Positions 1,514 to 12,115 of a stretch of 60,393 nucleotides of DNA are shown here, in pieces. The position numbers and the translations under genes are program-made. The notes under the pieces are model-generated. The model saw only the letters and a program-made list of their open reading frames with translations. It was not told the DNA's origin and did no database searches. The DNA comes from an uncultured Legionellales bacterium (GTDB lineage: Bacteria > Pseudomonadota > Gammaproteobacteria > Eutrophobiales > Eutrophobiaceae): NCBI GenBank assembly GCA_913046215.1, contig CAJWRJ010000005.1:1-60393 (forward strand). The letters run 5' to 3'. Every line of letters begins with the position of its first letter. The first letter of the stretch is position 1.

Positions 1514-2695
1514 ATGCCTGGACGTAATTTTTTATTTATCCCTGGACCTACTAATGTTCCAAGACGTATTCAAAATGCAATGTCTGTGGAACAGGAAGAT
1601 ATGCGTGCGATGGATTTGCCTGATTTTACTAAGCCCTTGTACGAAGATTTAAAGAAAATATTTAAAACAAAAAATGGTCGGATATTCATATTTCCAGCCT
1701 CTGGGACAGGAGGATGGGAGTCAGCGGTCTCAAACACATTGAGTTCTGGCGATAAGGTGCTGATGTCTGGCTTTGGACATTTTTCAAACTTATGGATTGA
1801 TCTTTGTCAGCGTTGGGGTTTAGATGTTCAGGCTATTGAAGTTGATTGGGGCGAAGGCGTGCCAGTTGAAAAATATGCTGAAATCCTAGCAGCCGATAAA
1901 AATCATGAGATTAAAGGAGTGTTTGCAACTCAAAATGAAACAGCAACAGGAGTTGCATCAGATATTGCAGGTGTTCGTAAAGCACTCGATGCATGCAATC
2001 ACCCAGCATTATTGTTTGTTGATGGCGTCAGTTCTGTTGCATCAATAGATTTCCGAATGGATGAATGGGGAGTCGACCTTTGTGTTTCAGGTTCACAAAA
2101 AGGTTTTATGCTACCAACTGGTTTGGGAATTGTATGTGCAAGTGAAAAAGCATTAGCATGTAGAGAAAACTCTAATCTTCCAAAGACATTCTTTGATTGG
2201 AATGATCAAATTAAGACAAATGATTTAGGTTATTTTCCATATACCCCTCCCATGAATTTACTTCGAGGACTGCGTGAATCTGTTAATATTTTAAATGAAG
2301 AAGGTTTGGAAAATGTTTTTGCAAGACATAATCGTATAGCTAGTGCTGTTCGTGCCGCAGTTAGTGCATGGGGCATGACACCAATTGCTAAGGAAGAGAA
2401 ATGGTATTCAGATACAGTTACTGCCGTTAAAGTTCCAGAGGGCTTTGATGGTAACGAGGTTGTTCGGCATGCTTACAACTATTACAACTTAGCATTATCA
2501 ATTAGTTTAGCAAAAATTGCTGGTCAAGCATTTCGTATTGGTCATTTAGGTGATATGAACGAGTTAATGATTCTAACACCAATAACTGGTGCAGAAATGG
2601 CAATGAAGGATTTAAATTATCCCATAGAGCTAGGTTCTGGTGTGGCAGCTGCGCAGGAGTACCTACGCAAGACAGCTACACCAAAAATAAAATAA
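1514..2695 (+). CDS. sgaA: Serine--glyoxylate aminotransferase
   Basis: A PLP enzyme that transfers the amino group of serine to glyoxylate, giving hydroxypyruvate and glycine, the step that regenerates the C1 acceptor in the serine cycle. At 393 residues it is the usual length for class-V aminotransferases of the AGAT/SGAT group. It opens with the FIPGPTNVP motif, has an aspartate in LLFVDGVSS (about 160) that would contact the pyridine nitrogen, and the Schiff-base lysine at 196 in SGSQKGF. A strong GGAGG lies about nine bases before the ATG. It is the first gene of a six-gene run on one strand whose other members (malyl-CoA lyase, malate thiokinase, hydroxypyruvate reductase, PEP carboxylase) are all serine-cycle enzymes. 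That context favours SGAT over alanine-glyoxylate aminotransferase. Confidence 0.93.
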   Translation: MPGRNFLFIPGPTNVPRRIQNAMSVEQEDMRAMDLPDFTKPLYEDLKKIFKTKNGRIFIFPASGTGGWESAVSNTLSSGDKVLMSGFGHFSNLWIDLCQRWGLDVQAIEVDWGEGVPVEKYAEILAADKNHEIKGVFATQNETATGVASDIAGVRKALDACNHPALLFVDGVSSVASIDFRMDEWGVDLCVSGSQKGFMLPTGLGIVCASEKALACRENSNLPKTFFDWNDQIKTNDLGYFPYTPPMNLLRGLRESVNILNEEGLENVFARHNRIASAVRAAVSAWGMTPIAKEEKWYSDTVTAVKVPEGFDGNEVVRHAYNYYNLALSISLAKIAGQAFRIGHLGDMNELMILTPITGAEMAMKDLNYPIELGSGVAAAQEYLRKTATPKIK

Positions 2696-2776
2696 TAAAA
2701 AATTTTACATAACAGAATAGCGTCAATTCTTTAAAATTCTTGACCTATATCTTTTAATTTATTTGAGGATGAATAA

Positions 2777-3730
2777 ATGAGTTTTACACAATATGAACAA
2801 GCATATGCACGTTTACAACGTAGTGAGCTGGCTGTTCCTGGGTCTAGTCCAGAAATGTTTGAAAAAGCAGCTAAGAGTGATGCAGATTTTGTTTTTCTAG
2901 ATTGTGAGGATGCCGTTGTTCCTGATGATAAAGAGCAAGCAAGAAAAAATATTATCGAGGGATTAAATACAGTTGATTGGAATAGTAAAACTGTATCTGT
3001 TCGAATTAATGGTTTAGATACACATTATATGTATAGAGATGTTGTGGATATTCTAGAACAGGCTGGTAACAATCTTGACACAATTTTAATTCCAAAAGTT
3101 GGAACCGATGCTGACGTATATGCAATTGACATGTTAGTTACGCAGATAGAAACAGCAATGGGTTTGAAGAAAAAAATTGGATTGGAATGCCTTATTGAAA
3201 CAGCACTTGGAGGGGCAAATGTTATGTCCATCGCACAAGCAAGCTCACGATTAGAGGCATTACATTTTGGTGTTGCTGATTATGCGGCTAGTATGCGCTC
3301 GAGAACAACAGTCATTGGCGGTTTGAATCCAGATTATGTTTGTGATGGTGCGCTTAATGATCAGTGGCATGCAGCACAAGTTAACATGCTTACAGCATGC
3401 AGAGCATTTGGCCTTCGTGCAATAGACGGACCATTTGGAGATTTCAGTGATGATGAAGCATATAGAGCTGCCGCAAGACGTGTAGCGGCTTTAGGTTATG
3501 AAGGTAAATGGGCTATTCATCCAAAACAAATACCATTGGCAAATGAAGTTATGTCCCCACCAGATGCAGAGGTAACTCGTGCTAGGCGAGTACTAGAGGC
3601 ACTTGATGAAGCAGCAAAAGCCGGCAAAGGTGCCGCGCAGCTTGATGGCAAAATGATTGATATAGCTTCTGAGCGTATGGCAAGAAATGTTATCGCCCAA
3701 GCTGATCAAATCGCCAAAAAAACTAAGTGA
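2777..3730 (+). CDS. mclA: L-malyl-CoA lyase
   Basis: A HpcH/HpaI (CitE-like) TIM-barrel lyase that would split L-malyl-CoA into acetyl-CoA and glyoxylate, the exit step of the serine cycle; family members may also act on beta-methylmalyl-CoA. The 317-residue protein shows the conserved LDCEDAV (41-47), the arginine of VRING (R76), the metal-binding glutamate in CLIETALG (E141) and the aspartate in FGVADYA (D168). It resembles the alphaproteobacterial MclA almost end to end, but the loop after GLNPDY (about 190) looks roughly ten residues shorter than the Methylobacterium protein as I recall it. It lies 81 bases after sgaA and 44 bases before mtkA. A citrate lyase beta subunit is unlikely in this context. 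Confidence 0.92.
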   Translation: MSFTQYEQAYARLQRSELAVPGSSPEMFEKAAKSDADFVFLDCEDAVVPDDKEQARKNIIEGLNTVDWNSKTVSVRINGLDTHYMYRDVVDILEQAGNNLDTILIPKVGTDADVYAIDMLVTQIETAMGLKKKIGLECLIETALGGANVMSIAQASSRLEALHFGVADYAASMRSRTTVIGGLNPDYVCDGALNDQWHAAQVNMLTACRAFGLRAIDGPFGDFSDDEAYRAAARRVAALGYEGKWAIHPKQIPLANEVMSPPDAEVTRARRVLEALDEAAKAGKGAAQLDGKMIDIASERMARNVIAQADQIAKKTK

Positions 3731-3774
3731 AAAATTCAAATACAAAAAAATAAGTTATAAGGAGTATGTAAATA

Positions 3775-4947
3775 GTGGATATTCATGAATATCAATCAAA
3801 AGAAATACTCTCTGAGTATGGGGTACCAATTGCCGCAGGTGGATTAGCATATAGTCCTGAGCAAGCAGCTTATCGTGCAACAGAAATAGGCGGTGATGCT
3901 TGGGTTGTAAAAGCCCAAATTCATTCAGGCGCTCGCGGTAAAGCTGGAGGTATTAAGGTTTGTAAAAGCGAAGATGAAGTAGCAAAGGCAGCTGAAGAAC
4001 TACTTGGAAAAAAATTGGTGACTCATCAAACAGGGCCACAAGGAAAAGTCTGTCATCGATTATACGTAGAGGCTGGGTGCAATATAGATCGTGAAATATA
4101 TATGGCTTTTGTTCTTGATAGGCAAAAAGAGAGTGTAACAGTTGTTGCATCAGCTGAAGGCGGAATGGAAATTGAACAACTTGCAATTGAGAAACCAGAT
4201 TCGATCATAAAGATTGCAGTTGAAGCAGCTGTAGGGATGCAACCATTTCAAGCTCGGGAAATTGTTTTTGCATTAGGTTTAGATAAGTCACAAGTTAATC
4301 AAGCAGTAACAACTATTCTTGGTTGTTATCGTGCAATGCGAGATCTTGATGCAAATATGGTAGAAATAAATCCATTAGTTGTAACAAAAGAAGGAAATCT
4401 ACTAGCAGTCGATGCAAAGATGGGGTTTGATGACAATGCACTTTTTCGTCACAGCCAGATTTCCGAATTAAGAGATAAATCGCAAGAAGATATTCGCGAG
4501 ATGAATGCCGCGGATCGTGGATTAAGTTATGTTGGGTTGGACGGCAACATTGGGTGCATTATTAACGGCGCTGGTTTAGCAATGGCAACAATGGATATGA
4601 TTATGCATGCGGGCGGAGAACCTGCTAATTTTCTTGATATCGGTGGCGGCGCATCTCCAGAACGCGTAAGCAAAGCTTTTAATCTTGTGTTATCTGATGA
4701 CAACGTAAAATGTATTTTAATAAACATTTTTGCTGGTATTAATCGATGTGATTGGGTGGCAGAAGGCATAATTCAAGCAGTTCAAAAAATTGAATTAAAG
4801 TTACCCGTTGTTGTTAGATTATCGGGAACAAATGTTGAACAGGGTCGAAAGATGCTAAAAGATAGTGGTTTACCACTCATAATGGCTGAAACACTTAGAG
4901 AAGCTGCTGATAAAGCAGTTGCTGCATGGAAAGAAAATAGCAAATAA
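3775..4947 (+). CDS. mtkA: Malate--CoA ligase, beta subunit
   Basis: The ATP-grasp subunit of malate thiokinase, which with MtkB makes malyl-CoA from malate, CoA and ATP. It is a homologue of SucC (390 residues). The N-terminal ATP-grasp begins [11 protein letters not shown], a VEINPLVV metal-site motif follows at about 200, and a CoA-ligase Rossmann domain containing the GGGASPE segment fills the C-terminal third. The start is GTG at 3775, supported by AAGGAGT about ten bases upstream; the usual MDIHEYQ sequence begins exactly there. By sequence it could be succinyl-CoA synthetase. Its position between mclA and mtkB in a serine-cycle block is the reason for calling it MtkA. Confidence 0.9.
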
Positions 4948-4959
4948 GAGAGGAATATT

Positions 4960-5850
4960 ATGGCAATTCATTTAAAAGAAACTACTAAAGTTTTAGTACA
5001 AGGTTTTACAGGTCAAATTGGTTCCTTTCATTCAGCTGACATGATTAAGTATGGAACAAATATTGTTGGTGGCGTGACACCAGGTAAAGGTGGAATGAAG
5101 CATCTTGATAAGCCGGTTTTTAACACAATGAAAGAAGCTGTTGAGGCAACTGAAGCAGAAGCTAGTATAATTTTTGTCCCACCACCATTTGCTGCTGATA
5201 GTATTATGGAGGCAGCTGATGCAGGCATTAAATTTTGTGTGTCAATTACCGATGGAATACCCTCCCAAGATATGATTCGTGTTAAGCGTTATATGCGTCG
5301 ATATAAAGAACAAGATAAGATGATTTTGACAGGCCCCAACTGTGCAGGCTCAATAAGCCCAGGAAAAAGTATGATGGGAATAATGCCGGGACATATTTAT
5401 TCACCTGGTAATGTTGGGCTTATAGGTCGTTCCGGAACATTAGGTTATGAAGCTGCATCACAAATGAAAGAGGAAGGTATTGGTATTTCAACAAGTGTTG
5501 GTATTGGAGGCGATCCAATTAATGGCAGCTCATTCAAAGACCATTTAGAATTTTTTGAACAAGATGATGAAACAAAAGCCGTCGTTCTTATTGGAGAAAT
5601 AGGTGGCCCTCAAGAGGTAGAGGCAGCAATGTGGGCAAAAGATAATATGAAAAAACCAGTTATTGGCTACATAGCCGGGTTGACAGCACCAAAAGGCCGT
5701 CGCATGGGCCATGCAGGTGCAATTATTTCAGCTGTTGGTGAAAGTGCTGCAGAAAAAGTTGAGATATTGCAGGAGTGTGGTGTAAGTGTTGTTCCAAATC
5801 CATCATCATTTGCACCCGTTGTTAAAGGTGTATTAGATAAAGTCAGTTAA
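4960..5850 (+). CDS. mtkB: Malate--CoA ligase, alpha subunit
   Basis: The CoA-binding and phosphohistidine subunit partnering MtkA, homologous to SucD (296 residues). It starts with a Rossmann CoA-binding domain containing VQGFTGQIGSFH. The second domain carries the catalytic histidine, H251, in GHAGAI, which is phosphorylated in this family. An AGAGG site precedes the ATG. The gene follows mtkA by 12 bases, as expected for a 1:1 complex. The call of malate rather than succinate as substrate is inferred from neighbours and not from a diagnostic residue. Confidence 0.9.
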   Translation: MAIHLKETTKVLVQGFTGQIGSFHSADMIKYGTNIVGGVTPGKGGMKHLDKPVFNTMKEAVEATEAEASIIFVPPPFAADSIMEAADAGIKFCVSITDGIPSQDMIRVKRYMRRYKEQDKMILTGPNCAGSISPGKSMMGIMPGHIYSPGNVGLIGRSGTLGYEAASQMKEEGIGISTSVGIGGDPINGSSFKDHLEFFEQDDETKAVVLIGEIGGPQEVEAAMWAKDNMKKPVIGYIAGLTAPKGRRMGHAGAIISAVGESAAEKVEILQECGVSVVPNPSSFAPVVKGVLDKVS

Positions 5851-5866
5851 ACGGAGATTAAAAGAG

Positions 5867-6841
5867 GTGAGTAAACCAAAAGTTATCCTTACACGGAAAT
5901 GGCCAGATGAGGCTGAGAAAAAAGCAAAGGAACTTTTCGACGCAGTTCTTAATGAAGACGATCATAAAATGTCTATTGAGGAACTCAAAGAGGCAATGTG
6001 TAATGCTGATGCGTTATGCCCAACAGTTTCAGATTTTCAAATTAATTCCGATGTATTTGGTGTTGAAAATCTTAAATGTAAGATTGTCGCAAACTTTGGT
6101 GTTGGCTATAACAATATTGACACCAATGCTGCAAAAGAAGCCGGTATTGTGGTAACTAATACACCTGATGTTTTAACAGATTGCACCGCAGATATTGCCA
6201 TGGTTCTTCTTTTATCTGTCGCTCGTCGCATTGGCGAAGGGGAACGTCTTGTCCGCAATAAAGAGTGGTCTGGTTGGTGTCCAACCCATATGTTGTCAAC
6301 CAAAGTGACTGGTAAGAAACTTGGGTTTATTGGTTTTGGCAGAATTGCACAAGCCGTTGCTCAAAAAGCACATTTTGGTTTTGGTATGCAGATAAGTTTT
6401 TATGATCCCTATCCACCTTCAGATGAAATTGTAAAAAAGTTTAGTGCAACTAAATTTAATGTCTTAGAGGATGTTCTAAAAGATTCTGATTTTGTAACTT
6501 TGCACTGCCCAGGTGGCGGTGAAAATACAAATCTGCTAAACAATGATCGTTTTGCATTGATGAAGAACTCAGCATTCCTAATAAATACGGCACGCGGTGA
6601 TGTTGTGGATGAAAATGCTTTGGTTCAGGCATTAAAAAATAATGTCATAGCAGGGGCTGGTTTGGATGTTTATGCTAAGGAACCTACCGTAACAGAAGAG
6701 TTATTGGGTATGGACAATGTAGTTCTCATTCCTCACTTAGGTAGCGCAACCACAGAAACAAGGGTTGCTATGGGGTTACGTTCCTTAGAAAATGTTAAAG
6801 CATTTTTTGATGGAAAAGAGCCTGGCGACCGTGTTGCATAA
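5867..6841 (+). CDS. hprA: Hydroxypyruvate reductase (glycerate dehydrogenase)
   Basis: A D-2-hydroxyacid dehydrogenase that would reduce hydroxypyruvate to D-glycerate, the step after SgaA in the serine cycle. The nucleotide-binding GFGRIAQ begins near residue 156. The catalytic set is complete: R243 in NTARGD, E272 in AKEPT and H290 in IPHLGS. The length of 324 is normal. The start is GTG at 5867 with CGGAG at 5852-5856. By sequence a glyoxylate reductase or another family member is possible; position between mtkB and ppc supports hydroxypyruvate reductase. Confidence 0.88.
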   Translation: MSKPKVILTRKWPDEAEKKAKELFDAVLNEDDHKMSIEELKEAMCNADALCPTVSDFQINSDVFGVENLKCKIVANFGVGYNNIDTNAAKEAGIVVTNTPDVLTDCTADIAMVLLLSVARRIGEGERLVRNKEWSGWCPTHMLSTKVTGKKLGFIGFGRIAQAVAQKAHFGFGMQISFYDPYPPSDEIVKKFSATKFNVLEDVLKDSDFVTLHCPGGGENTNLLNNDRFALMKNSAFLINTARGDVVDENALVQALKNNVIAGAGLDVYAKEPTVTEELLGMDNVVLIPHLGSATTETRVAMGLRSLENVKAFFDGKEPGDRVA

Positions 6842-6865
6842 AATCATAATTGGTAAAGGTTATTT

Positions 6866-9607
6866 ATGACATCGGCTGATGCCGGTTTTGACGAGCATTC
6901 ACTAGATACAATTTCTGCAACATATGCTAAAGAAGTTGTAGGGCTTCTAACTGAACAGCTCACCAAGGTAATTGAACACCGTAATTGCGATATTCTTCCC
7001 TATTTCAAAGGAGAACTCCTTCTCCCTTCTGATAATTCTGCAATGCTTTTAGATACCTTACAGGCATGGGGTATATGGTTTCAGTTACTAAATGTTGCAG
7101 AAGAAAATACTGCAATGCGTCGTCGTCGTTTAGCAGAAAAAGAGTACGGATTAGAGAATGTTCCCGGTACGTTCGCCAGTGTTTTCAAGCAAGCTAGTGA
7201 ATTAAAAATTAGTAGCGATGAAATTCAGAATTTACTTGATATCGCTAATATTTGCCCAACGATTACAGCGCATCCAACTGAGGCAAAGAGAGTTACCGTT
7301 CTAGAGATTCATCGCAGGATTTATGTATTGCTGTATCGAATTGAAGCTTCACGTTGGACACAACGCGAAAGAGAAAAACTTATATCTTCACTGCGAGACG
7401 AGATAGATCTGCTTTGGTTAACCGGAGAATTAAGATTAGAAAAACCTACGGTCGAGCAGGAAACTATCTGGGGACTGCATTTCTTCGAGCAATCTCTGTT
7501 TAAGCGTGTTTCGGAAACACATGAGAGGCTTAAATGGGCTCTGAATCTGAGTTATCCAGGTGAAAATTTTTCAATACCTCCTTTTTTTAAATTTGGATCA
7601 TGGATAGGTGGAGATCGTGATGGTAATCCTTATGTCACTAATGATGTAACTAAGGATAGTTTGCTGAAGAACCGTCAAATAATCTTAGATTATTATATTG
7701 AGTCAATTGAAATCTTAGTTGAGAAACTAAGCGTCTCCCGTGAGAGCGTAACATTATCAAAAAATTTCGAAAATCATCTCAATAATATTCTCAAAAGTAT
7801 TGATGAACTCGAGTCAATCTCTACCAGAAACCCCGGAGAGGTTTTTCGTCAATTTTTAAGCTGTATGTTAATAAAATTGCGTGGGACGTTGGAAAGTGAA
7901 GAGGAGGGACACTATAGTGCTATTAGTTATCAAAATGCAGATGATTTCATACTGGATCTTAAACATCTTTCTGAAGGTTTATCTGAGTCCAATTGCGAGC
8001 AGTTATCAAATTTATTAGTGAACCCATTACTACAGGAGGCAGAGTCATTTAGATTTTGCACGGTTCGTCTCGATTTGAGAGAAAATTCAGATTCAATTAA
8101 TCATGCTTTGTCTGTTATTTGGGTGGCGATGAAAAATGGCGAGGAACCTCCTGCACCTAATAGCGAAGAATGGAAAAAATGGTTACTAGAAGAACTTGAA
8201 AAACCACTTGATACCTTACCAACTTTTTCAAACTTAGATGAATCATCCTCATCTACATTAGGCCTTTTTGAAATGGTCACTCAAATGATGGATAAGCTTG
8301 ATAACGAGGCATTTGGCAATTTTATTTTGAGTATGACAAAAACGGTGAACGATATATTAGGTGTTTATTTTTTGGCAAAAATTACTGGTATTTTTTCCGG
8401 TGAAAATGAGAAAGAATTTTCGCGTTTATCTATTGTTCCTCTATTCGAAACTATTGAGGATTTAAGATCTGCGCCAAAGATAGTTCAAGAGTTATTAGCG
8501 GTACCAATTATCAGTAAAACAATTAAACAAAAAACTGGTATTCAGGAAGTTATGATTGGTTATTCTGATTCAAATAAAGATGGTGGTTATTTTACTGCTA
8601 ATTGGGAGTTGAATAGAGCACAAGCAAGCCTAACCAGGGTTGGTAATGAAGCTGGTATTCCAGTTTCTTTTTTTCATGGACGCGGTGGATCTGTGAGTCG
8701 CGGTGGTGCGCCAACTGGCATTGCTGTTGCAGCACAGCCTGCCGGTTCTGTTCACGGACAAATGCGAATTACAGAGCAAGGCGAGGTAGTTTCATCAAAA
8801 TATGCAAACGAGGGGACAGCGCAGTACCAAATGGAGCTACTTTCGGCCAGTGTGTTTCAACATACCCTAAGATCACTTGATGAAGAGCAATTAAAGCCTA
8901 ATTTAGATTTTGATAAAGCGATGGAATCATTATCCAGACTAGCATTTAAAAAATATCGAGAACTCGCCGAATCAAATGGTTTGGTTGATTATTACAGTGC
9001 CGCCAGTCCAGTTGAAGAACTTGCTAAAATGAATATTGGATCTAGACCTGCTAGAAGAACTGGCACAAAGTCACTTGATGATTTAAGAGCTATTCCTTGG
9101 GTTTTTGCGTGGACTCAAAATAGGCATCTTGTACCCGGATGGTATGGTGTTGGTAGTGCAATAAAAGAATTTACAGATGAACATGGCAATAAGGGCAGAA
9201 AATTAATAAAAAAGATGTTTGCCGAATCACGCTTATTTCGTTTAGTTGTTGATGAGACGGAAAAAACACTATCGCTCATCGATTTTGATATCTGTAAAGC
9301 ATATTCAGAACTTGTTGAGGATGAAAGTATTAGAAAAAATATTTTCAATATGATTAGTAGTGAATATAGCTTAACAAAAGAAGTAATTTTAGAAATTACT
9401 GGCGAAGACAAGCTATCTCAGCGTTTTAAAAAGTTTAGCCGAAAGTTAAATCGCCGACTACCCGTTTTACATCAAGCAGGTCTTGAGCAAATTAAGTTGA
9501 TTAAAGAATTTCGTCAGCGAAATAAGGGAGATGAAATAACTGATGATCTAATACCCCTATTATTATCAATAAATTGTATTTCATCAGGATTAGGTTGGAC
9601 AGGGTAG
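6866..9607 (+). CDS. ppc: Phosphoenolpyruvate carboxylase
   Basis: Carboxylates PEP to oxaloacetate, the CO2-fixing step of the serine cycle as well as a general anaplerotic enzyme. At 913 residues it is slightly longer than the Escherichia coli enzyme. The catalytic histidine is H136 in ITAHPTEAKR, followed by the GGDRDGNP segment near residue 248, the GYSDSNKDGG motif near 570 and the FHGRGGSVSRGG loop near 605. No frameshift or missing catalytic segment is visible. It is the last gene of the C1 block and its end lies 12 bases from the end of a convergent gene. Whether it is allosterically regulated by acetyl-CoA or aspartate cannot be read here. Confidence 0.96.
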   Translation: MTSADAGFDEHSLDTISATYAKEVVGLLTEQLTKVIEHRNCDILPYFKGELLLPSDNSAMLLDTLQAWGIWFQLLNVAEENTAMRRRRLAEKEYGLENVPGTFASVFKQASELKISSDEIQNLLDIANICPTITAHPTEAKRVTVLEIHRRIYVLLYRIEASRWTQREREKLISSLRDEIDLLWLTGELRLEKPTVEQETIWGLHFFEQSLFKRVSETHERLKWALNLSYPGENFSIPPFFKFGSWIGGDRDGNPYVTNDVTKDSLLKNRQIILDYYIESIEILVEKLSVSRESVTLSKNFENHLNNILKSIDELESISTRNPGEVFRQFLSCMLIKLRGTLESEEEGHYSAISYQNADDFILDLKHLSEGLSESNCEQLSNLLVNPLLQEAESFRFCTVRLDLRENSDSINHALSVIWVAMKNGEEPPAPNSEEWKKWLLEELEKPLDTLPTFSNLDESSSSTLGLFEMVTQMMDKLDNEAFGNFILSMTKTVNDILGVYFLAKITGIFSGENEKEFSRLSIVPLFETIEDLRSAPKIVQELLAVPIISKTIKQKTGIQEVMIGYSDSNKDGGYFTANWELNRAQASLTRVGNEAGIPVSFFHGRGGSVSRGGAPTGIAVAAQPAGSVHGQMRITEQGEVVSSKYANEGTAQYQMELLSASVFQHTLRSLDEEQLKPNLDFDKAMESLSRLAFKKYRELAESNGLVDYYSAASPVEELAKMNIGSRPARRTGTKSLDDLRAIPWVFAWTQNRHLVPGWYGVGSAIKEFTDEHGNKGRKLIKKMFAESRLFRLVVDETEKTLSLIDFDICKAYSELVEDESIRKNIFNMISSEYSLTKEVILEITGEDKLSQRFKKFSRKLNRRLPVLHQAGLEQIKLIKEFRQRNKGDEITDDLIPLLLSINCISSGLGWTG

Positions 9608-9619
9608 GGTTATTTAAGT

Positions 9620-11032
9620 CTATTTATAGATTACTACCTTATCGATTTTTTCTAAATTAATCGGCAATTCCATGTAACCACCTGATTTTTTGATTTTCAG
9701 CTGTATCTTATTTTTTTCACTTTTTATAATCAATCCTTTAAATTCTTTCCCCGATTTTAGTTTGATTACAGCATATGACTTTATGTAATTTTTAAGTTCT
9801 GAGATTGGAACTTCAACTAAAGACTTTTTCTTTTTTAGTTTTTTATTTTTTAGTGGTTCATTTTTATTTTTAGGCGCTTCAACTAAAGGCTCTTTACTTT
9901 TTAATGACTCAGTTTTATTTAATTTTTGTTCTTTTTCTACCTCAGTTTTTTTATTTATCTTAAAAGAAAAATCATTATAGTCCTTACCATTGACCTTTAC
10001 AGTCATGCCAAGAATATACGGCCATTGATTGATCTCGTATTGGTTAAAATATTGGAGGTTCGATAGATTCTCCGGCATAAACTTAAATTCTATTTTTGAT
10101 TGTGGGCTATTAAATGCCTTCACAATATGGTAAATGTCGTCGCTTAGAGTAAGTCCCATTTGAGTAATAATTTTTTTAAAATCGCCCATAACGGCATCAA
10201 GATAGTTCTCTGATTTCCTCTCCATTCTTTTTGCGCAATATTTAATGAATCTCTCGTTATAACCAAGGTCATGAATGCCAAAAGTAATTGTGGTTAATAA
10301 ATTTTCTTGATTAAGGATCATAGATGCAAGTGGCTCAATGCCGGACACTCTGGTTTTTATGAAGTAATCCCCGGCATCGTGAACCGTAAATCCAAATTTT
10401 AGATCGATCATTGATGCATATTCATCAAACTCATAATCTAACTCAATACTGCTATCATATTTAGCGTAGCCAAGTTTCGGCATTAAATCTTCAGGATATA
10501 GTGGTTCGTTTTCCCAATCACTAAGCAGACCATTACACATTAGACTTTTAAGTTGGGCAATATGAGTTTCAAATTCATCTTTTTTTAAATTTTTACCGAG
10601 TCCTGCAAATTGATTTGCATCAACTTTGAGATGATTTACCTTCAATTGTATTTTGGGAATTATTCTTATTATACTGTCAAATTGTTTAATTGGGTTTTTT
10701 GTATTTTGTTTTAGATTAAGTAATTTCCTATCTAAGAGAAAATAATCCAATACACTATCTAATCTAAATTCTATTGATTCAATTGTTACTGCATTGTCTC
10801 CAGGAGGGAGATTAGCAGCAAAAAGAGCAGATGGAGCCATTTCAATATCTTTAAGGGTTATTGAGCCATCCATTGAATAATTAATACCAATACTCTGATA
10901 CGTTATGTCAACATACGGGGATGCTTCTGATAATACATAATCAACGTTCACTTTAATCTTCCAGTATAGATACCCATAAAACCCGGCTATTACAAGGCAG
11001 ACTAAAATTATCAATTTAATAATTATTTTCAA
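9620..11032 (-). CDS. Membrane-anchored protein of unknown function with a Sm-like tail
   Basis: I do not recognise this protein. I choose the TTG at 11032 as start because GGAGAG (11041-11046) lies eight bases upstream and the protein then opens as a clean hydrophobic anchor (about residues 2-22); a longer ATG start at 11128 adds 32 odd residues and no good ribosome site. The resulting 470 residues are: an N-terminal membrane segment; about 340 residues of mixed strand-rich sequence, presumably outside the cytoplasm, distantly reminiscent of AsmA or YdgA-type proteins; a lysine-rich linker (about 360-410) with two near copies of an LVE(A/V)P element; and a C-terminal stretch of about 55 residues. 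That last part (VIKLKSGKEFKGLI... MELPINLEKIDKVVIYK) looks like a Sm/LSm-type small beta barrel. It is convergent with ppc and divergent from the nucleotidyltransferase gene. Confidence 0.75.
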   Translation of the reverse strand: MKIIIKLIILVCLVIAGFYGYLYWKIKVNVDYVLSEASPYVDITYQSIGINYSMDGSITLKDIEMAPSALFAANLPPGDNAVTIESIEFRLDSVLDYFLLDRKLLNLKQNTKNPIKQFDSIIRIIPKIQLKVNHLKVDANQFAGLGKNLKKDEFETHIAQLKSLMCNGLLSDWENEPLYPEDLMPKLGYAKYDSSIELDYEFDEYASMIDLKFGFTVHDAGDYFIKTRVSGIEPLASMILNQENLLTTITFGIHDLGYNERFIKYCAKRMERKSENYLDAVMGDFKKIITQMGLTLSDDIYHIVKAFNSPQSKIEFKFMPENLSNLQYFNQYEINQWPYILGMTVKVNGKDYNDFSFKINKKTEVEKEQKLNKTESLKSKEPLVEAPKNKNEPLKNKKLKKKKSLVEVPISELKNYIKSYAVIKLKSGKEFKGLIIKSEKNKIQLKIKKSGGYMELPINLEKIDKVVIYK

Positions 11033-11179
11033 TATCTTATCTCTCCGTATGACCAATATGATCCATATAACTACAAGATACCTAATCATATTACGCCTTA
11101 TCAGTAGCCTGTATATATTTTTCTGCATGAAGTGAACTAATTCGAGTGATTTTTTTTGATAAACGAGTAAAACTAAGCG

Positions 11180-12115
11180 ATGCGAATCAGACCAAAAGAC
11201 TTTATTGCTATCGATGATAAATTATTCTTTGCTGTAGTGAATGAATTTCAGGAAGATAATCACGCATTAACATTTCTGCGTTATATAAAAGATAATACGA
11301 GCATACGTAAGCTTACTACAAAAGAAGCGGATGAAATTATTACAAAATACTATCCGGAGTTTCAATTTAGTAGTGCTTATATTGATATCAAGCTGCATGG
11401 TATTCCAATTAGTATGATAAAAGAAATCTATTATCCAGAGGATACGATCAGTCGATTACATAGCGTAAAAATATTTGATGATAAAAAAAAGGATGCAATA
11501 GGTGTTATAAAATATTTACAAAGTGTGGGTTGCAAGGTAAATGACTTTGGTATTACAGGCTCTCTAATGCTGGATGCACACAATCAGGATTCAGATATTG
11601 ATATTGTTATATATGGTCGGGAGCTATTCCTTGAAATTAGAAACCATATAAAATGTTCATTAGCTACAGGGGAGCTTAGTCCGTTAGATCAAGCGATGTG
11701 GAAAGACGCATACGAGCGCCGCAATTGTTCATTAAGCTTCAAAGATTTTTATTTCCATGAAATAAGAAAATATAACAAATTTATTTTTGGCAAAAGTAAG
11801 GTTGATATTAGTGCTATTCCTAGTGAGACTGAAAGATACAAAGAGAGCGGGCCTTATAAAAAAATTGGTCAAGAAAAAATTCTATCAGTCATAACAAATG
11901 ATACTCGTGCTTATGATTTCCCTGCGAGGTATTCAATAGATCACGACACTATTAAAGAGATTATTTGTTACACCGCAACCTATACTGGTCAGGCAAAAAA
12001 GGGAGAGAGAATTGAGGCTAAGGGTTTTGTAGAAGAGGATAGTAATGGGGTGCATCGTTTACTAGTGGGTACCAGTCGTGAGGCTGAAAATGAATTCATT
12101 CGTGTAGTTGATTAA
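11180..12115 (+). CDS. Predicted nucleotidyltransferase-fold protein
   Basis: A 311-residue protein with a Pol-beta-type nucleotidyltransferase signature: the GITGS turn at 124-128, the carboxylate pair D139 and D141 in QDSDIDIVIYG, and a plausible third carboxylate D209 in SKVDISAIP. The N-terminal 110 residues (starting RPKDFIAIDDKLFFAV) and the C-terminal 75 residues are conserved-looking but unassigned. It resembles, from memory, the predicted nucleotidyltransferases of COG1665, a group I associate mainly with archaea. No antitoxin or partner gene adjoins it: the left neighbour is divergent and the right neighbour convergent. The substrate is unknown. An antitoxin or tRNA-modifying role would be a guess. 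Confidence 0.7.
   Translation: MRIRPKDFIAIDDKLFFAVVNEFQEDNHALTFLRYIKDNTSIRKLTTKEADEIITKYYPEFQFSSAYIDIKLHGIPISMIKEIYYPEDTISRLHSVKIFDDKKKDAIGVIKYLQSVGCKVNDFGITGSLMLDAHNQDSDIDIVIYGRELFLEIRNHIKCSLATGELSPLDQAMWKDAYERRNCSLSFKDFYFHEIRKYNKFIFGKSKVDISAIPSETERYKESGPYKKIGQEKILSVITNDTRAYDFPARYSIDHDTIKEIICYTATYTGQAKKGERIEAKGFVEEDSNGVHRLLVGTSREAENEFIRVVD

Follow-up and report, generated by a model that had tools for sequence, protein, structure and literature searches.

What would a small Sm-like barrel do at the end of a membrane protein? Barrels of this kind are known above all for RNA handling inside the cell, and one is predicted at the C terminus of a membrane-anchored protein of 470 residues encoded in the window (the whole stretch of DNA analysed, 60,393 nucleotides with a GC content of 35%). 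The gene is present as a single copy in its own genome (1.40 Mb, 98.8% complete) and its features are collected in Table 1. An ortholog from the same genus (L002, in genome G005) is 42% identical to the window protein and has a TTG at the matching start position, with a TAG a few codons 5' of it in the same reading frame, which makes the alternative, longer start at an ATG at 11128 unlikely.

Table 1. Features of the gene and of the protein that it encodes, in window coordinates
Feature	Coordinates	Strand	Residues	Basis or remark
Gene for the 470-aa membrane-anchored protein	9620..11032	-		TTG start at 11032, stop at 9620-9622
GGAGAG, ribosome-binding-like site upstream of the TTG	11041..11046	-		Read directly from the sequence
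N-terminal membrane anchor, uncleaved type, containing Cys12	10964..11026	-	about 3-23	
Strand-rich JlpA-like domain	9950..10957	-	about 26-361	Predicted models of the window protein and a relative
First invariant cysteine of the domain	10535..10537	-	Cys166	Alignments
Second invariant cysteine of the domain	10235..10237	-	Cys266	Alignments
Lysine-rich linker	9824..9949	-	about 362-403	Low model confidence
Sm-like tail	9623..9823	-	about 404-470	Predicted model and sequence profiles

AlphaFold2 models of the window protein and of a relative from P. subflava, built on 19-row alignments, reached mean pLDDT values of 66.6 and 75.8, respectively. According to DSSP, the window model begins with a helix (residues 2-37) and continues with a mixed strand and helix domain up to about residue 359, in which pLDDT falls below 50 at 136-158, 170-189 and 322-337. 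Confidence is also low at 363-403. In the tail that follows, a helix at 410-416 precedes five strands at 420-469, and pLDDT is about 80-87. Each part given in the first-pass annotation is confirmed by the model, namely the anchor, the large strand-rich domain, the linker and the small C-terminal domain. The lysine-rich character that it gave to the linker applies to the window protein and its ortholog, where lysine makes up 33% and 27% of the 45 residues ahead of the tail, but it is not a general feature of the tail proteins, the mean over 44 anchored proteins (window included) being 8%. Both the layout and the tail fold are predicted, from the models together with sequence profiles.

In the predicted model, the tail consists of a short N-terminal helix and a five-stranded small barrel of the Sm/LSm/Hfq fold. 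This tail, of 66 residues, matches the C-terminal domain of RimP with a Z score of 10.8 (1.5 Å over 68 residues) and on Hfq from M. jannaschii with a Z score of 10.1 (0.9 Å over 54 residues), while other Hfq chains, from many bacteria, score about 8.6-9.3; Foldseek by itself returns modest E-values (0.0076 for RimP). The tail of the Pseudomonas relative is likewise modeled as an Sm-like barrel. Independently of any model, a sequence profile built from 57 tails and compared with the PDB has its best matches in the Sm-like protein 1m5q (E 9.9e-6) and Edc3 (6y3z, E 1.4e-5), and then reaches KLLA0A11308p (5lop, E 1.4e-4), taken as Edc3 on the basis of the title of 6am0, followed by LSm8 and LSm4. 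By hand count, 47 of the best 60 of 88 matches are Sm, LSm, Hfq-like or Edc3 chains, the other 13, with weaker E-values, being HTRA1 (nine), the designed barrels 7ur7 and 7uwy, BB1, and eL33. The first-pass annotation had read the C terminus as Sm/LSm-like and had named structure prediction of the full protein as a check; with a small barrel predicted in both proteins and a profile that reaches Sm/LSm chains, this interpretation is supported and was not refuted. Edc3/LSm and the archaeal Sm-like proteins, the best PDB sequence matches of the profile (E about 1e-5, among the best 60 of 88), are eukaryotic or archaeal, act inside the cell in mRNA decay or snRNPs, and have no membrane anchor, unlike the window protein.

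The closest known relative, both by fold and by Pfam model, seems to be the C-terminal domain of RimP (DUF150_C, PF17384). The window protein has no Pfam or NCBIfam match above the cut-off, nor does any model span it whole, in agreement with the earlier remark that no named family has this layout. Below the cut-off, the tail searched alone matches DUF150_C (E 0.003, 18.2 bits against 26.3; 13.7 bits for the full protein) and LSM (PF01423; E 0.085, 13 bits against 23.4). Among 14 full-length relatives searched at E up to 1, DUF150_C matches nine and LSM three, and no further Pfam family matches more than one. The ortholog L002 passes DUF150_C by 0.2 bits (26.5 against 26.3), so that Pfam would label its tail a RimP C-terminal domain, and on this sequence evidence the tail is linked more closely to the RimP barrel; the other members with bit scores given all fall under the cut-off. 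The NCBIfam RimP models weakly match a few members, and in L005, for which ranges are given, only in the tail region. RimP is a cytoplasmic ribosome-maturation factor with an N-terminal domain of its own, which had no Pfam match in the window protein or the relatives searched; the window barrel instead comes after a membrane anchor. Two other family matches were found. The sole NCBIfam match of the window protein under E 1, LIC_13076 (E 1.9e-4), spans the linker and the tail; its 21 bits lie far under the cut-off of 110, and it was attributed to lysine-rich composition together with a weak match to the barrel. L060, a Pseudomonas-type tail protein, passes the Pfam model for the biotin-ligase C-terminal domain (25 against 21 bits), which is another small barrel.

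Sm-like folds are also found in the small lipoproteins YgdI and YgdR of E. coli. The exported cytochrome Kustd1711 holds an Hfq-like domain, described as acidic rather than RNA-binding (PMC11791136), which indicates that a fold of this kind can exist outside the cytoplasm. This nose domain (7zs0), which superimposes on the window tail with a Z score of 8.9, is inserted in an anammox diheme cytochrome, whereas the window barrel ends a membrane protein at its C terminus. FlgV, which is a membrane protein and once bore the name Hfq, was considered as a second precedent and discarded, given that PMC11607428 describes it as predicted to form two helices and an unstructured tail and not an Sm fold. 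A prior description of periplasmic Sm-like proteins was not found in the open-access papers searched.

For the large domain, a profile search against the AsmA/YdgA families had been suggested as a check. An assignment to these families was rejected for the window protein. No AsmA-type Pfam match was found in the window protein or in 14 relatives, a result that concerns Pfam-detectable relations. The comparison with YdgA/DUF945 (PF06097) aligns 44 columns with a probability of 37.6, all within the anchor, so that the likeness in architecture (an N-terminal anchor and then a large domain) does not extend to an alignment of the domain. PF06097 has no match in the window protein and DUF945 is absent from its genome, while L015, a tail-less relative, has a DUF945 match under the cut-off on its first 44 residues, again the anchor (E 0.0019). 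In its predicted fold, the large domain instead resembles JlpA, most clearly in the Pseudomonas relative (JlpA from Campylobacter jejuni, 3uau; E 5e-6, Z 13.7 over 265 residues, 5.0 Å); the window domain, which is partly of low confidence, gives a looser match (E 7.3e-4, Z 9.0, 7.6 Å). Identity is 9-10% and the match stops ahead of the tail. The JlpA structure reportedly holds a hydrophobic ligand, and by analogy the JlpA-like domain may do the same. JlpA itself is a lipoprotein. The lipobox consensus requires Gly, Ala or Ser before the cysteine, and Cys12 of the window protein is preceded by Val; together with the 15 of 19 relatives without an anchor cysteine, this sets the window protein apart from JlpA-type lipoproteins.

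The side of the membrane on which the tail lies was addressed in 19 aligned relatives with set starts, four of them of the Pseudomonas type. The N-terminal side of the anchor carries a net positive charge in 17 of them, L013 and L002 being at zero. Beyond the anchor all 19 have exactly two cysteines, both of them invariant in both alignments, a pair that fits a disulphide outside the cytoplasm. An additional cysteine within the anchor is restricted to the window protein, L002, L012 and L018. From the anchor charge and the two invariant cysteines, the tail of the window protein is predicted to lie in the periplasm, in support of the extracytoplasmic topology that the first-pass annotation had drawn. 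This prediction applies to the window protein in particular. Among other proteins with the tail, L162 (from genome G400) looks by eye like a short exported protein with little beyond a signal peptide and the Sm-like tail, and a tail-out arrangement is likewise read by eye for multi-helix proteins, L145 among them. In the three-helix tail proteins, which are frequent (n=33), the mean loop charges, 1.24 and 0.97, are too close to assign a side.

A tail of this fold could bind RNA or DNA in the manner of Sm and Hfq, so that the nucleic acid is either tethered at the membrane or captured outside the cytoplasm. The Sm/Hfq/RimP-like fold would suit such a role, as would the strongly basic window tail (net charge +8, among the more basic tails) and the lysine-rich linker that precedes it. 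However, net charge ranges from -5 to +10 over 94 tails (two of which are RimP), 26 of them being neutral or negative, and few members have a lysine-rich linker. In Sm proteins, RNA is contacted by an Asp and an Asn in the Sm1 motif and an Arg-Gly in Sm2. The positions aligned to these residues in the 57 tails are mixed or hydrophobic and not conserved, including the Asp and Asn of Sm1, and the conserved columns are glycines (G14 in 45/57, G24 in 46/57, G29 in 52/57, and G48 in 56/57) and hydrophobic residues. Conservation of the tail is mostly structural, with no binding face indicated by the alignment. Nucleic acid binding is regarded as very improbable.

The distribution of the tail suggests a different kind of function. 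Scanning genome contigs with the window protein as a single query found no relative, and a search of plasmids with the tail gave no match. With profiles, matches were obtained in 22 of 369 genomes of the class (two rows, E up to 0.01) and in 61 of 369 (14 rows, E up to 0.001). Reading of the ORFs assigned the whole layout of anchor, large domain and tail to 18 class genomes, the own genome counted and G051 added on reading L171; this recurrence argues that the layout is more than chance. The tail is found on another membrane or exported protein in 38, and only part of the large domain in six. Since G400 has both the layout and a tail on another protein, the tally is 18 + 38 - 1 + 6 = 61. One tail was read from each of the 38 genomes, and all of them match a tail profile with E-values of at most 1e-3. 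The layout is also present in 18 loci of the Pseudomonas group (16 Pseudomonas records and two Pseudomonadaceae MAGs), with culturable carriers such as P. alcaligenes and P. nitroreducens. Presence is patchy in the order of G232 (five of 24 genomes, one as a partial ORF). Across the phylum, a tail-only profile with an E threshold of 0.01 matches 19 of 398 genomes, but a few of these matches read as RimP (L054, L061). The window protein therefore belongs to a wider set and is not an isolated oddity, and the tail marks unannotated proteins in many genomes.

The scaffolds that carry the tail can differ even within one genus. In G001, from the same genus as the window, a tail 47% identical to that of the window is found on a protein of 217 residues with predicted membrane helices (L003, 1498-2151), adjoining, by eye, the genes for ribosomal proteins L13 and S9. 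The best tree built from 81 tails groups this G001 tail with those of the window and its ortholog at 64/86, which is not strong, and the group is drawn with the long-branched L052 at 80/85. A single clade for all the tails of the whole layout is disfavored (p 0.02), but a constraint that keeps the window tail with those on the same type of scaffold is not rejected (p 0.13). Domain swapping of the tail between scaffolds is suggested by these sequence comparisons. In some of the multi-helix proteins (L020, L085, L145, and L154), the segment that joins the helices to the tail contains a C-x-C pair (CAC or CGC), which may be linked to metal or redox chemistry; L021 is related to them and has no such pair.

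Barrels of the Sm, Hfq and MscS types pack edge to edge into rings or stacks, and the tail could accordingly be an assembly module that oligomerizes the JlpA-like domain. The five-stranded Sm-like fold, a membrane-tethered layout, which would favor rings, and the proteins bearing two Sm-like tails (L045, by profile, and L051, by eye and from another class of the phylum) are all in keeping with this possibility. It is nevertheless judged unlikely, as the fold nearest to the tail is the RimP C-terminal domain, which to our knowledge does not form rings, and as the LSm domain of Edc3 is monomeric when isolated, according to PMC4320757. In the same paper, the isolated domain binds helical, leucine-rich short motifs and whole Edc3 is a dimer.

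With one fold on several scaffolds, a variable linker, and no catalytic or RNA-binding signature, an adaptor tail is the most economical reading. The window protein would be an inner-membrane, JlpA-like protein, periplasmic in its bulk, whose Sm-like tail serves for docking rather than for binding RNA, a proposal given an even chance of being correct. A single uncleaved N-terminal helix would anchor the protein in the inner membrane, the JlpA-like domain, held by one predicted disulphide, may cradle a hydrophobic ligand, and a flexible linker would carry the small barrel. This barrel, like the LSm domain of Edc3, would recognize a short stretch of another protein, and any membrane protein bearing the tail would in this manner be brought to the same envelope place or partner. 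Several observations count against the proposal: the conserved columns of the tail single out no binding face, neighboring genes differ between families, loop charges assign no side to the three-helix proteins, the JlpA match of the window protein itself is loose, and RimP, the nearest in fold, is cytoplasmic. In this proposal we infer both the docking role of the tail and the ligand of the JlpA-like part. A broader version is tentative and rather doubtful: the tails might constitute an undescribed, extracytoplasmic branch of Sm-like domains in gammaproteobacteria, nearest to the RimP C-terminal barrel, which would act as an exchangeable tail and dock several envelope proteins onto one periplasmic partner or assembly. 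If true, the recurrent extracytoplasmic tail would represent an Sm-like fold serving as envelope adaptor, a new and unnamed use of a known fold whose function we infer.

The neighborhood of the gene bears on one further alternative, in which an SH3-like tail binds peptidoglycan or some other polymer of the envelope, with a linker long enough for it to reach the cell wall. The separation of domain and tail by a linker and the sharing of the tail by several scaffolds are compatible with it, as is an OprI-like lipoprotein gene seen by eye near the gene of P. subflava (L090, one of four Pseudomonas-group loci read). This explanation is considered quite improbable, however, because no wall-binding family is found among the Pfam matches of the tail and because the neighborhood is not common across families: in 20 stretches read (19 with the whole layout plus L126, a three-helix tail protein), no gene neighbors are common across families. 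A docking tail remains the preferred reading. Neighbors are common within single families, as in L116, L118 and L119 and likewise in the window and G005, which have in the same order, with names given by eye, a PEP carboxylase, the target gene, an ORF of 311 residues, and a sodium/alanine-type symporter. The 311-residue ORF, divergent from the target gene at 11180-12115 and kept in order in G005, matches a nucleotidyltransferase model (PF01909; 21.2 bits against 21). On the other side, positions 1514-9607 of the window hold a run of genes that reads by eye as a serine-cycle set, in a genome of 1.40 Mb: serine-glyoxylate aminotransferase, malyl-CoA lyase, malate-CoA ligase subunits, hydroxypyruvate reductase, and the PEP carboxylase.
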